Source of the DNA: Sinomonas sp. ASV486
GTDB lineage: Bacteria; Actinomycetota; Actinomycetes; Actinomycetales; Micrococcaceae
Reading direction: 5' to 3'
Assembly: GCF_030908215.1 (NCBI RefSeq)
Contig: NZ_JAVFJK010000003.1
Span: forward strand, 1 to 37,376
DNA length: 37,376 nucleotides
The number at the start of each line of letters is the position of its first letter. The stretch's first letter is position 1. A program made the position numbers and the translations under genes. Shown here piece after piece: positions 12,389 through 29,034 of the stretch. The notes under the pieces were generated by a model. That model had not been told where the DNA came from. It did not search any database and saw nothing but the letters and a program-made list of their open reading frames with translations.

Positions 12389-13220
12389 TCCGTCGACTTT
12401 CCTCGAGATCCCGACGTGCCGATGCCCCGAGGGGGTTCGTCAATTGCAGGGCCGCATCCTTGAGCGCCTCGGCCACTCGTTCCAGGTGCTCCGGGGTCGC
12501 GCGGGCCTCCTGGATGGCGACGCCCAGCGCCAGCGGCGGATCACCCGGCGCCCAGCCCTCGAGCGGCACGGCGACCCCGACGAGCCCGGGCATCCCTTGC
12601 CCCGGATCGAGCGCCCAGCCGCGCTCGCGGGCGCGGTGGAGCTTCTCGAGAAGCTCCGGCAGCTCGCGCACGCTGCGGTCCGTGACATGGGGGAACGGGA
12701 CCTGATCAGCCATGATCGCCTCGATCCGGGAATCATCCATGACCATGAGCAGGGCGTTCCCCGTGGCGCTCAGGGCGGCGTGGATCCTTGACCCCAGCGG
12801 GGTTCCGAAGCGGACTGTGCGCGAGCCCTCGTGGCGGGCCAGGTAGAGCGCGTCATGGTCGTCGAGCATGGCCACCTGCACCACCTCGTGACGGAGCACG
12901 GGCGAGGCCTGGCAGACGGCGTAGAACTCCCGCACCTGGTTGAACTGGGCGGCGAAGGCGCCGCCCAGTTCGGCGTTGCGGCGGCCCAACTGGTAGCCCG
13001 AGGGGACCCGCTGGACCATGCCGCCCTCCTCGAGCGCCAGGCACAGGTTCATGGTCGAGGACTTGGGCAGCCCGAGCGCCGTGGCAATCTCGGTGAGCGT
13101 CAGGGGGCCGTTGGCCTCCGCGAGCACGCCCAGGATCTTCAGGCTGCGCGTGACCGCGGGGGCGGGGTCCCGGCGCTCGCGGTCCTGCTCATCGCCATCG
13201 TTCGGAATGGACTTCGCCAT
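12375..13220 (-). CDS. IclR-family transcriptional regulator
   Basis: A 281-aa regulator: an N-terminal winged helix-turn-helix (about residues 20-85, with LTLTEIATALGLPKSSTMNL as recognition unit) and a C-terminal effector-binding domain (HEVVQVAMLDDHDALYLARH through the GWALDPGQGMPGLVGVAVPL region). The start at 13220 has AGAGGAG 7 nt upstream; an earlier in-frame ATG at 13253 lacks one. It sits between the dehydrogenase at 13308 and the permease operon, on the same strand, so it most likely controls both. The shared operator found at 12365-12388 and 14437-14460 fits this. Whether it represses or activates is not shown; overlap with the -35 suggests repression. The effector is probably the hexonate or a keto derivative. 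Confidence 0.92.
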   Translation of the reverse strand: MAKSIPNDGDEQDRERRDPAPAVTRSLKILGVLAEANGPLTLTEIATALGLPKSSTMNLCLALEEGGMVQRVPSGYQLGRRNAELGGAFAAQFNQVREFYAVCQASPVLRHEVVQVAMLDDHDALYLARHEGSRTVRFGTPLGSRIHAALSATGNALLMVMDDSRIEAIMADQVPFPHVTDRSVRELPELLEKLHRARERGWALDPGQGMPGLVGVAVPLEGWAPGDPPLALGVAIQEARATPEHLERVAEALKDAALQLTNPLGASARRDLEESRRSSEG

Positions 13221-25563: not shown

Positions 25564-27027
25564 ATGAGCTCCCCCGACGTGCCCGCCGAACTGACCCCTG
25601 AGGAAATCCAGGCTGCCCTGAAGGTGCTCGGCACGATCCACACGTACGACGAGGAGCATCCCGATTACGTCGCGGTTCGGCGTGCCACCGGCAAGATGTT
25701 CAAGGCGCACCGGCGCTTCACGCGCACCCAGAAGCGAGACGCGGTGGCCGAGGCGGACAAAGCTGTCATCGCCCAGACGGCCACCGCGGCCCCGGACCGG
25801 ATCGACGACGAGACGAGGGGCAATAAGCTCAAGCCATCGGCGACGGGCGACGTCGCCGGGCATCTCCTCCGCTCGCGGCCCTGCTACATTTGCAAGCAGC
25901 ACTACACCCAGGTCGACGCGTTCTACCACCAGCTGTGCCCGGACTGTGCCGCGATGAGCCATGCGAAGCGGGACGCACGCACCGATCTGACCGGGCGGCG
26001 CGCGCTCCTCACGGGCGGCCGTGCCAAGATCGGAATGTACATCGCCCTACGGCTCCTGCGCGACGGCGCCCACACGACCATCACGACGCGCTTCCCCAAG
26101 GATGCCGCGCGCCGCTTCGCCGCGATGGAGGACTCCGGCGAATGGCTCGACCGGCTCACGATCGTGGGGATCGATCTGCGCGACCCGTCCCAGGTCATGT
26201 CGCTCACCGACGCGCTCGACGCCTCGGGTCCGCTCGACATCATCATCAACAACGCCGCCCAGACAGTGCGTCGTTCGGGCAACGCCTACAAGCCGCTCGT
26301 GGACGCCGAGTCCGAACCCCTGCCTGCGGCCCTTCTGGCCTCCAACGGCGGTCCCGAGCTGCTCACGTTCGGGCATGCGCACGACAAGCACCCGCTCTCG
26401 ATCGCCGGATCCGTCGCGGAGCATCCAGCGCTCGCGGGCGACGCCGTGACTGCGCTGGCGCTCTCGACTGGATCCGCTTCGCTCGACCGGATCGCTGCGG
26501 GGACCGCGATCGATGCTGGCGGCCTTGTCCCGGATGTTGCCACGATCAACTCGTGGACGCAGGTCGTGGACCAAGTAGACCCGCTCGAGATGCTCGAGGT
26601 CCAGCTCTGCAACGTCACCGCGCCCTTCCTCCTCGTCTCACGGCTACGGCCCGCAATGGCGCGTTCGACGGCGCGGCGCAAGTACGTGGTCAACGTCTCC
26701 GCGATGGAGGGCCAGTTCGGGCGGAAGTACAAGGGCCCTGGCCACCCGCACACGAACATGGCGAAGGCCTCGCTGAACATGATGACCCGCACGAGCGCCG
26801 GGGAGATGTTCGAGACCGACAGGATCCTCATGACCGCCGTGGACACCGGCTGGATCACCGATGAGCGGCCGCACTACACCAAGGTCCGGCTCGCCGACGA
26901 GGGCTTCCATGCTCCTCTGGACCTCGTGGACGGGGCTGCGCGCGTGTACGACCCGATCGTCATGGGCGAGGGCGGCACCGACCTGTACGGGGTCTTCCTA
27001 AAGGACTACAAGCCAAGCCCCTGGTGA
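25564..27027 (+). CDS. SDR-like protein with N-terminal Cys4 motif
   Basis: A 487-aa protein. Residues 1-100 are helical and charged. Residues 107-128 hold C107-x2-C110 and C125-x2-C128 (CYICKQHY, CPDC), a probable zinc knuckle. From 140 an SDR fold follows with TGGRAKIG (150-157), D204 in GIDLRD, and NNAA (229-232). An insert of about 100 residues (235-335) comes before the second half. Ser is kept (VNVSAMEG, S379) and Lys at 401 (TNMAKASLN), but the catalytic Tyr position is T397, so classic SDR chemistry is doubtful. I know of a conserved group of such Cys4-SDR proteins in bacteria and eukaryotes, but not of a function. TAGAAT (25551-25556) and GGGAAG precede the ATG. Confidence 0.82.
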   Translation: MSSPDVPAELTPEEIQAALKVLGTIHTYDEEHPDYVAVRRATGKMFKAHRRFTRTQKRDAVAEADKAVIAQTATAAPDRIDDETRGNKLKPSATGDVAGHLLRSRPCYICKQHYTQVDAFYHQLCPDCAAMSHAKRDARTDLTGRRALLTGGRAKIGMYIALRLLRDGAHTTITTRFPKDAARRFAAMEDSGEWLDRLTIVGIDLRDPSQVMSLTDALDASGPLDIIINNAAQTVRRSGNAYKPLVDAESEPLPAALLASNGGPELLTFGHAHDKHPLSIAGSVAEHPALAGDAVTALALSTGSASLDRIAAGTAIDAGGLVPDVATINSWTQVVDQVDPLEMLEVQLCNVTAPFLLVSRLRPAMARSTARRKYVVNVSAMEGQFGRKYKGPGHPHTNMAKASLNMMTRTSAGEMFETDRILMTAVDTGWITDERPHYTKVRLADEGFHAPLDLVDGAARVYDPIVMGEGGTDLYGVFLKDYKPSPW

Positions 27028-27057: not shown

Positions 27058-27065
27058 TCGATCCC

Positions 27066-27125
27066 GTTGAGGGGTCCCTGGCGGACCGTTGAGGGGTCTC
27101 TGGCGGACCGTTGAAGGGTCCCTGG
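27066..27125 (+). repeat. 22-bp tandem array, left of the DUF559-like gene
   Basis: Two full units (27066-27087, 27088-27109) and a third partial unit (27110-27125) that runs into the stop codon of the next gene at 27126. Each unit begins GTTGAGGGGTC or GTTGAAGGGTC and contains the core GGTCTCTGGCGG or GGTCCCTGGCGG. The period is exactly 22 bp. The same family occurs in inverse orientation at 28094-28159. Confidence 0.92.
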
Positions 27126-28055
27126 TCATGCCGCCTTATCGCTCAAGAGAATCCGAAGCTCGTGGCGCACGCGAGCAAAGTCATCGTGCAGGTCGTCGAC
27201 CGTCGCGTGAATGAGGTCCCACCCAACGCGCCGGAAAGCGGTATCGCGCCATAAATCGATGTGCTGCTGCTCAGGCTCCAGATGGTGGCCGCCCTCATAG
27301 TGGATACCGATGCGACCCAGCGGGTAGCCAATATCAATGCTCGGGGACCGAGGGTCCGTGGGATCCAGCCGGATCTGGAGCTCGGGCTCGGGGAATCCGT
27401 GGGCGATGAGGCACATCCGCAGGAGTGACTCCGGGACAGAATCGGAACCAACCCGCATGTCAGCAAGCGCCTCTTTGCACTTGCCGACCCCTTTGACCTT
27501 TGGATGGGCCCGTAGAAGGCGTGCAAGGGAAGCCTTCGTCTCGTAGGGCTCCCCTCGTCCTTCGAACTCGGGGCGGGGAACGCGGATCAGCTGATCGCCC
27601 AACGCAACGAGCGCGACGGGTGTTAGTTCATGCCCCAAGTCCAGCCACGTTCGGCCCCGACTGGTGAGACGCAAGCCCTCGCGTGCCTCGAGCTCGCCTT
27701 CCAGGATCCGCACACGGTGCCCCACGACACCGGGACGGCGAACCCGAGGAAGGTGGGACGGCTTGCTCAGGTGAATCGCCGAGTGGTCCTCGATCCATCG
27801 GGGCAGCCACAGCCCGAGGATCGCGCCCGCTGTCCGATGGGACGCCCACGCCTCGGGGTTGACCGCCAGATGCGCACGAACGAGATCCTCCAGCCCGGGA
27901 GGTGCGGAACCTGGTACGAAGACGCCCCGACTGACCTGCCGGATGTCCTCGAGCCTGAGGTCAACAGGATTCAATCCGTGTGCCCGAGCCTCGTTGGCCG
28001 AGAAGGGACGTCCTAGGAGACTGTTCAAGTGCTCATCGGCGTTCATGCGCCCCAT
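27126..28055 (-). CDS. DUF559-like protein bracketed by inverted 22-bp repeat arrays
   Basis: A 309-aa protein. The N-terminal 50 residues look like the winged-helix of AbiEi-type proteins (RPFSANEARAHGLN, QVSRGVFVPGS). The middle is helical and basic. The C-terminal 100 residues resemble DUF559 / very-short-patch-repair-like nuclease folds: E209 (PESLLRMCLIAHGFPEPELQ), D241 (DIGYP), E254 (IHYEGGHH), Q264 and GWDLIHATVDDL. The usual Lys of a PD-(D/E)xK site is not evident, so activity is uncertain. The ATG at 28055 has GAAGG about 12 nt upstream; 28046 is an alternative. Both flanks are tandem 22-bp repeats of one family in opposite orientation, which no neighbouring gene shows. This suggests the gene and arrays are one unit. 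The function is not known. Confidence 0.8.
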   Translation of the reverse strand: MGRMNADEHLNSLLGRPFSANEARAHGLNPVDLRLEDIRQVSRGVFVPGSAPPGLEDLVRAHLAVNPEAWASHRTAGAILGLWLPRWIEDHSAIHLSKPSHLPRVRRPGVVGHRVRILEGELEAREGLRLTSRGRTWLDLGHELTPVALVALGDQLIRVPRPEFEGRGEPYETKASLARLLRAHPKVKGVGKCKEALADMRVGSDSVPESLLRMCLIAHGFPEPELQIRLDPTDPRSPSIDIGYPLGRIGIHYEGGHHLEPEQQHIDLWRDTAFRRVGWDLIHATVDDLHDDFARVRHELRILLSDKAA

Positions 28056-28093
28056 GCTGGCATACCTTCACAGAGGGGGCCGCAGAAGTTATC

Positions 28094-28159
28094 CACAACC
28101 CTGCGCCAGAGACCTCACAACCCTGCGCCAGAGACCCCACAACGCCCCGCCAGAGACCC
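28094..28159 (-). repeat. 22-bp tandem array, right of the DUF559-like gene
   Basis: Three full units (28094-28115, 28116-28137, 28138-28159) with exact 22-bp period. On the minus strand the units read GGTCTCTGGCG followed by CAGG or GGGC and then GTTGTG, matching the left array's GGTCTCTGGCG-GACC-GTTGAG in the same phase. The array lies 38 bp upstream of the DUF559-like start. Confidence 0.92.
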
Positions 28160-28182: not shown

Positions 28183-29034
28183 TCAGGCGACTCGCGTGAT
28201 CTCTACCGTGACCTCCAGGTGCGAGCCTCCGCCGCCGGACAGGATGCCCTTGAGCGGGGGCACGTCGCGGTAGTCGCGGCCGCGGGCCACGGTCACGTGG
28301 AAGTCGCCGGCCGGCTTGTGGTTGGTCGGGTCCCACGAGCGCCACTCGCCGTCCCACCATTCGAGCCACGCGTGCGACTGCCCGGCAACGACCTCGCCGA
28401 TCTCAGCCCCCGAGCGCGGATGGAGGTAGCCGGAAATGTACCGGGCCGGGATGCCGAGGCTCCGCAGCGACCCGATCGCGAGGTGCGCGAGGTCCTGGCA
28501 CACGCCCTGGCGCTGGTTCCAGGCCTGCTCGGCGTCCGTGGTCACGCCGGTGGACCCCGGCATGTAGCGCATCTCCCCGCGCATCCAGTCGAAGACGGAG
28601 TGGGCGGCCTGGTTCGGGTCCATGTCGCCGGCAAGGCCGGGGACGATTCCGAGCACCTCGGAGCCCGGGGCTGAGAGCCGGGACTGCGGCAGCCAGTCGC
28701 TGAACTGGTCCTCGACCTCGGGGCTGCGCAGCCGCTCCCACGAGACGACCTCGCCCTCCAAGGGGACGCGCTCCACCCGGTGCACTTCGACAGTGGTCGA
28801 AGAGACAACCTCGAGGTACTCGTGCGGGATCTGCATGTCGAACGCAGTGACGCGGCTGCCCCAATAGTCCTTGTAGGAGCTGACGGCGGCCTGGGTCGGC
28901 GCAACGCGCACCTGCGACTCCAGCACCACCTGCTGGGGCTCTGTCAGCGGCGTCATCCGCGCCTCGTTGTACGAGAGGGTGACCCTCTTGTTGTACCGGT
29001 AGACGGTACGGTGAAGGATCTTCAGCCGGGTCAT
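28183..29034 (-). CDS. transglutaminase-like cysteine protease family protein
   Basis: A 283-aa protein with an N-terminal beta-domain (KILHRTVYRYNKRVTLSYNE) and a transglutaminase-like papain-fold core. The catalytic triad is visible as C179 (GVCQDLAHLAIGSLRSLGIP), H221 (GQSHAWLEW) and D235 (WDPTNHK). Such proteins are predicted to act as peptidases or transamidases rather than true transglutaminases. The ATG at 29034 overlaps the alpha-E gene stop by 4 nt (ATGA), so it is coupled. It is the third gene of the ATP-grasp/alpha-E/transglutaminase operon, a widely conserved set in bacteria. Cytosolic; no signal peptide. Confidence 0.93.
   Translation of the reverse strand: MTRLKILHRTVYRYNKRVTLSYNEARMTPLTEPQQVVLESQVRVAPTQAAVSSYKDYWGSRVTAFDMQIPHEYLEVVSSTTVEVHRVERVPLEGEVVSWERLRSPEVEDQFSDWLPQSRLSAPGSEVLGIVPGLAGDMDPNQAAHSVFDWMRGEMRYMPGSTGVTTDAEQAWNQRQGVCQDLAHLAIGSLRSLGIPARYISGYLHPRSGAEIGEVVAGQSHAWLEWWDGEWRSWDPTNHKPAGDFHVTVARGRDYRDVPPLKGILSGGGGSHLEVTVEITRVA

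Follow-up and report, generated by a model that had tools for sequence, protein, structure and literature searches.

What is a putative nuclease gene doing between two mirrored arrays of the same 22-bp repeat? The question is raised by a locus of the soil bacterium Sinomonas sp. ASV486 that lies in the window, the whole 37,376-nucleotide stretch of DNA analysed here (NZ_JAVFJK010000003.1, positions 1 to 37,376). An initial annotation, made from the sequence alone, described a DUF559-like gene bracketed by inverted arrays, and proposed that gene and arrays form one cassette that is mobile, autoregulated or a defence-type unit. That observation is genuine and understates what the locus holds. 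We put at about 0.6 the probability that the window contains one master locus of a system of REP-like repeats with an enzyme of its own, not a RAYT but a putative nuclease related to Vsr and DUF559 proteins.

Architecture of the window locus

The features of the locus are collected in Table 1. Two 22-bp arrays in opposite orientation around the gene, as first described, are borne out by Tandem Repeats Finder (left, 27064–27125, 2.8 copies, score 110; right, 28093–28159, 3.0 copies, score 106), and the arms are 80–84% complementary. On the left, the third unit is drawn out to 27129 by the repeat finder. The coordinates also confirm that the left array overlaps the stop codon of the gene and that 38 bp separate the end of the right array from its ATG. 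The unit reads approximately KTTGNGGGGTCYCTGGCGNNNC. An exact core common to both arrays had also been claimed. This holds for the right array, where all three units carry GGTCTCTGGCG, but not for the left, where one unit of three carries it and the others read GGTCCCTGGCG and GGTCCCTGGTC. The G+C content of the cassette gene is 64.0%, versus 69.1% for the window.

Table 1. Features of the cassette and its neighbours, in window coordinates
Feature	Position	Strand	Context or basis
Short-chain dehydrogenase gene (PF00106), convergent with the cassette gene	25600..27027	+	Profile match; 5′ limit approximate
Left array, three 22-bp units of GTTGAGGGGTCYCTGGCG type	27064..27129	+	36 bp 3′ of the stop of the convergent dehydrogenase gene
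Cassette gene, 309 aa, AbiEi-like N-terminal part and DUF559/MTES_1575-related C-terminal part	27126..28055	-	ORF, profile searches
Right array, three 22-bp units, orientation opposite to left	28094..28159	-	23 bp 3′ of the transglutaminase-like stop codon
Transglutaminase-like gene (PF01841, PF08379)	28183..29034	-	Profile matches

The encoded protein has two recognizable parts. Residues 18–142 match the PADLOC AbiEi profile (E 4.1e-10). Taken alone, the window protein matches DUF559/MTES_1575 weakly (E 0.075, 13.6 bits versus a cut-off of 38.2), and its best PDB sequence match, 3hrl, is weak as well (E 0.044). Among 38 aligned relatives, AbiEi profiles match 37, while at E<=0.01 PF18741 matches 24, PF04480 matches 21 and the vsr profile (TIGR00632) matches 1. 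Residues E209, D241, Y253, H258, D267, R270 and W279 are invariant among these 38. The relative in Sinomonas atrocyanea DS1015, sole match in a scan of genome contigs, shares 73% protein identity with the window protein. The orthologue at L089 and L093 (G004:C5; S. atrocyanea DS1015) looks frameshifted near its 3′ end, as its last residues match in another reading frame.

Known RNA families were also considered and dropped, one tRNA being the sole match across the seven sources searched. In the window, a tRNA gene at 1499–1582 is the sole Rfam match at the gathering threshold.

Most examined homologues are bracketed by lineage-specific repeats

Homologues occur in all 15 Sinomonas genomes (E<=1e-15), in 91 of 149 Micrococcaceae genomes (E<=1e-25) and, phylum-wide, in 14 of 296 genomes (E<=1e-12). 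We compared 350 bp on each side of a homologue by local alignment and counted a score of at least 40, inverted or direct, as a shared repeat. The 95 loci comprise those returned by searches plus 40 picked by hand from a ranked list to spread over genera; they are related by descent, and the thresholds were set by the analyst. Left out before counting were L039 (a weak match with a stop), L040–L049 (Pfam profile only) and L211 (near a contig end).

A repeat is shared by both sides at 66/95 loci, or at 70/95 if arrays on both sides also count, versus 0/181 control genes from pieces of genome G005 and the window. Recomputed controls gave 0/168 in G005 and 0/154 in G045 (0/165 and 0/150 with 500-bp flanks). 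When left and right flanks of different family loci were mispaired, 8/368 passed, at least four of them between close relatives. The 25 loci with no shared flanking repeat include L050, just under the threshold, and L128 and L166, near contig ends. Outside the Micrococcaceae, 19 of 23 loci pass, bringing the phylum-wide figure to 21/25. At the level of these alignments, then, most examined members of the family are bracketed by copies of one lineage-specific repeat, and the proposal that gene and arrays form one unit is upheld.

The form of the repeat varies. By the analyst's thresholds, the 95 loci comprise 40 with palindromes, 27 with arrays, 3 with other inverted repeats and the 25 without. 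Unit length differs by lineage (14, 19, 21, 22, 31 or 32 bp), and several units have a GGGGTCAC-like core. The 22-bp period, which had been read as two helical turns, is thus not essential, given homologues with units of these approximate lengths or with simple palindromes. In a tree of 92 proteins, 19 of the 22 rows of the window's clade have arrays, and the nearest sister rows, with moderate support, have palindromes. Upstream of a homologue, the repeat is usually found no more than about 200 bp from the start. A Tsukamurella homologue with 27% identity has 64-bp palindromes on both sides; in the plasmid collection its palindrome matches 8 records from one organism at 20 places, and that of an Arthrobacter StoSoilB13 homologue matches 2 records from one organism at 39 places.

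Homologues within the window genome (G000) are distinct, at 100% and 58% identity to the window protein and then at 33% or less, and their repeats are different; no second near-identical cassette was found in this genome, the next homologue being that at 58%. Two of the further homologues, L036 (G000:C1:66259-67161, 58% identity) and L037 (G000:C16:169274-170062, 29%), have arrays of their own on both sides, with units of about 19 bp and 21 bp. At L094 (G005:C1, about 12700–12921), a 22-bp-type array pair has at its centre a palindrome similar to those of a different family (GACCTGACCC...GGGTCAGGTC), which looks like an element nested inside another one.

On mobile DNA the family is rare: homologues occur in 5 of 72,556 plasmid records and 1 of 50,697 phage records, and none were found in viral contigs. 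We set aside phage or plasmid carriage on these counts. The sole match in the phage collection (MT837503.1 4977-5930, 29% identity) belongs to a 'Bacteriophage sp.' record of 6.7 kb that was obtained from samples of human faeces.

Gene-less copies lie at gene ends

The repeat is not limited to the cassette. With up to two mismatches, the 18-bp core GTTGNGGGGTCYCTGGCG has 115 matches in the 4.28-Mb genome, versus 5 for the backwards pattern used as a control. At least 30 array sites of two or more units lie beyond the two of the window, among the matches listed, around which stretches were fetched. Context was scored at 28 of them, two being left out for overlap with a predicted ORF; gene calls came from a simple codon-usage model, which missed the window's own cassette gene. 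A stop codon lies within 50 bp at 27/28 sites. By their neighbouring genes, 15 sites are convergent, 13 tandem and none divergent. This distribution led us to reject iterons, the unit being found at gene ends across the whole genome.

Units occur in both orientations at 19 of the 28 sites. Eight inverted-pair sites, chosen by hand, were predicted to fold as RNA at -51.2 to -91.5 kcal/mol, and at each of them 0/200 shuffles folded as well. The same genome thus has gene-less copies dispersed at the ends of genes, most of them as inverted pairs with a predicted hairpin fold. Linkers within one arm are often alike, which suggests growth by local duplication. In G011, which belongs to the same species as the window genome, most array sites appear to be held in common, judging by order and spacing in unaligned sequence.

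The initial annotation had named two observations that would count against it. Genome-wide scatter of the repeats is indeed found; lack of a link to this gene family is not, as the comparisons between genomes also indicate.

Gene and repeat tend to come and go together

Counted as an exact 16-mer, the window unit occurs 86, 85, 38 and 25 times in the four genomes that have this type of gene, 32 times in G001 and between 0 and 6 times in each of the remaining ten Sinomonas genomes. At G001:C4 (L053/L085) the gene is bracketed by 7–8 copies per side of another 22-bp unit, GTTGYGGGGTCYCGTCCGGCCG. We read the 32 copies of the window unit that G001 has despite this other unit at its own gene as relics. 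The palindrome CGACTGCTCCGTAANTGTCG behaves more sharply, with 22, 29 and 33 matches in G006, G007 and G012, whose homologue it brackets, and 0 in the other 12 Sinomonas genomes (reversed control, 0). For another palindrome the counts are 77 in G045, 72 in G070 and 68 in G127, and a search of seven further genomes, four of which belong to the same genus, gave no match. Judging from these counts, a repeat family accompanies its matching gene and is scarce or absent in relatives without that gene. This presence and absence along with the gene, within the genus, again favours the view of gene and arrays as one unit.

The window's own locus tells a similar story. Among 15 Sinomonas genomes, the junction next to the transglutaminase gene is occupied by a cassette in 8 and the neighbourhood differs in 3; in the other 4 (G006, G008, G010 and G013) the cassette is absent and the dehydrogenase and transglutaminase genes adjoin. 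Across the eight genomes there are four unit types, and each gene has one type on both sides. In G006 (L081, G006:C1 2353-2386), a perfect 34-bp palindrome of the G001 unit type stands alone directly after the transglutaminase stop. Among 13 junctions compared between the window genome and G005, 4 have at least three same-family units in G005, 2 have one unit and 7 have none; at least 3 of these 7 show units of another family by eye. Clean empty sites with target duplications were not found in alignments inspected by eye, the 13 G005 junctions among them, nor did the genome comparisons reveal any transposition, excision, cutting or recent movement.

One orthologue pair appears to have switched repeats. 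The homologues of G070 and G045 are syntenic, with 85.7% DNA identity over 3.8 kb and 79.6% identity between the proteins, and the palindromes on both sides differ in family. We tested 15 dispersed G070 elements, 12 of which have both flanks in one piece of G045; of the other three, one is split across two pieces, one has one flank matched and one has none. In G045, ten of the 12 compared sites keep the same family, and at the other 2 the new family occupies the corresponding position. A 390-kb portion of G045 contains 31 arms of the old family and 8 of the new one. The 77 matches of the old palindrome in G045, kept though its own orthologue is now bracketed by another, are likewise read as relics. 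By sequence comparison, then, this pair differs in repeat family at the gene, on both of its flanks and at some of the dispersed sites.

The two proteins differ at 43/120 residues in the N-terminal part and at 8/120 in the nuclease part, while L165 and L152, which have a common palindrome, differ at 7/63 and 10/120, respectively. Of 146 pairs compared, most vary more in the N-terminal part, which makes the G070/G045 switch simply an extreme case. Excess of N-terminal over C-terminal divergence follows repeat difference weakly (Spearman -0.23, 146 non-independent pairs), and on this weak correlation we rejected a general rule that a repeat switch goes with N-terminal divergence. Overall, as far as these comparisons indicate, gene and repeat tend to change together between species.

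Stems of dispersed palindromes were also compared. Among 36 palindromes the outer arm is nearly invariant and the inner stem pairs covary, with 40 cells changed on both sides versus 18.7 in shuffles (0/500 as high); pairing is lost when the partners are shifted. Two stricter measures are unremarkable, namely pairs with a double change (7 versus 5.2 in shuffles, 34/500 as high) and further pair types (12 versus 10.3, 92/500 as high). Such covariation fits hairpin-based copying as well as selection on RNA.

Discussion

How might such a system work? We infer that the enzyme spreads the repeats. The AbiEi-like N-terminal part would recognise the repeat and the C-terminal part would nick or cut at repeats or repeat-like hairpins; repair from another copy would then spread the repeat. 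The same repair would overwrite other repeat families at the same gene ends and keep the two arms matched. In the window's clade, a single hairpin would have given rise to tandem arrays, probably through local duplication. The dispersed hairpins may double as 3′-end or terminator structures, which would account for where they persist. Generalized, this becomes a second, independently evolved kind of REP system across the Actinomycetota, in which a chromosomal AbiEi-like/Vsr-like nuclease would read a lineage-specific hairpin through its N-terminal part and cut DNA; copying driven by repair would then seed hairpins at the 3′ ends of genes, homogenise them and overwrite them, so that the dispersed copies shift to a new sequence when the recognition part changes. 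We would give this broader scheme even odds.

Several other explanations deserve consideration. The repeats may be bidirectional 3′-end elements, either terminators or hairpins that stabilise mRNA, maintained through selection on RNA structure, with the nuclease-like gene among them or a passive user of them. The closeness of nearly all scored sites to stop codons (27/28), their 15 convergent, 13 tandem and 0 divergent settings, the strong predicted folding of all eight hand-chosen inverted pairs and the covarying inner stems of a dispersed palindrome family are what this predicts. However, it does not account for the two-sided bracketing (66/95 versus 0/181), for the absence of a palindrome from genomes that lack the matching gene, or for a repeat switch that affected both flanks together with some dispersed sites, and we consider it unlikely. 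Less likely again is that the repeats serve autoregulation only, the protein binding upstream repeats to control its own gene and the dispersed copies being extra operators or decoys. AbiEi antitoxins bind upstream repeats and control their own gene, and an AbiEi-like N-terminal part in 37/38 relatives, together with an upstream repeat usually less than about 200 bp from the start, is in keeping with such control. Yet the repeat is also found on the downstream side, and copies without a gene are located at the 3′ ends of genes, with 0/28 between divergent genes; such 3′-end positions are not those expected of operators.

An insertion-sequence-like element, moving the gene and flanking repeats together and leaving gene-less copies as miniature derivatives, would be expected to have inverted repeats around a nuclease-like gene, and could produce a junction that has the cassette in 8 and lacks it in 4 of 15 genomes. 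We nonetheless find it improbable, given that homologues within a genome are distinct, carry different repeats and include no near-identical copies, and given their rarity in the phage and plasmid collections. A defence or toxin–antitoxin unit, a nuclease with an AbiEi-like part whose repeats mark self or serve as targets, is very improbable. PADLOC AbiEi matches in 37/38 relatives speak for it; but no AbiEii toxin gene stands beside the AbiEi-like part at the window locus, where the neighbours are the dehydrogenase and transglutaminase-like genes, and genome-wide dispersal of the repeats has no obvious place in such a unit. For the defence-type unit of the initial annotation, we saw no evidence in that direction.

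A master locus of a REP-like repeat system, with a dedicated nuclease-related enzyme, thus remains our preferred reading, and the likeness to REP elements with their nucleases that the initial annotation mentioned in passing was apt. In the accessible text of earlier work, REPINs are described as inverted REP doublets that form hairpins and are tied to single-copy RAYTs (PMC3116915), and TnpA-REP groups as having co-evolved with their REPs (PMC8266576). As these sources and PMC3733652 portray it, in the portions available, the REPtron comprises an enzyme gene flanked by its own repeat, as at 66/95 loci here versus 0/181 controls. It likewise has gene-less inverted pairs elsewhere in the genome, predicted to form hairpins; the counterpart here is the 19/28 sites with both orientations and the two palindrome families counted genome-wide. 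The same portions describe several different enzymes that coexist in a genome, each paired with a repeat of its own, and joint change of enzyme and repeat sequence. Unlike the REPtron, the present system has an AbiEi-like and DUF559/Vsr-related protein and not a Y1/HUH transposase, its Sinomonas repeats form tandem arrays, and no GTAG tag was noticed on casual inspection. A Y1 transposase (RAYT; PF01797) was sought at E<=0.001 and found in 0/13 genomes, compared with 5/14 control (ring) genomes, and a hidden RAYT as mobiliser was set aside on this count. The system therefore works like a REPtron but is not one, since the defining transposase is missing from these 13 genomes; it looks like an unrelated counterpart of the partnership between REP repeats and a transposase.

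Other known systems share single features with this one. CGTC-tagged REPs are, in the part of PMC3733652 that treats them, dispersed palindromes without a known dedicated transposase; the main text of that paper does not contain the words actinobacter, arthrobacter, mycobacteri or nocardioides. Caulobacter VsrA has a DUF559 domain of the PD-(D/E)XK superfamily, but the accessible sections of PMC12907096 discuss it as a mismatch-repair endonuclease linked to a cytosine methyltransferase and make no mention of flanking REP-like repeats. The N-terminal part of the window protein matches profiles of AbiEi from type IV toxin–antitoxin systems; unlike AbiEi, the protein adds a nuclease-related C-terminal part, and the window has no adjacent toxin gene. 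In the portion of the open-access literature available to our search, we found no account linking DUF559 or AbiEi-type genes with REP-like repeats.

The orthologues of G045 and G070 provide a natural switch pair in which recognition can be mapped. More generally, RAYTs with REP or REPIN sequences are, to our knowledge, the established example of a chromosomal enzyme with a partner population of dispersed hairpins, and the persistence of this association still calls for an explanation. If an unrelated enzyme has the same architecture, the arrangement arose more than once. Our reading, if true, would also assign a role to hypothetical proteins of the DUF559/AbiEi type, a common group in the Actinomycetota, and would explain lineage-specific repeats at gene ends.
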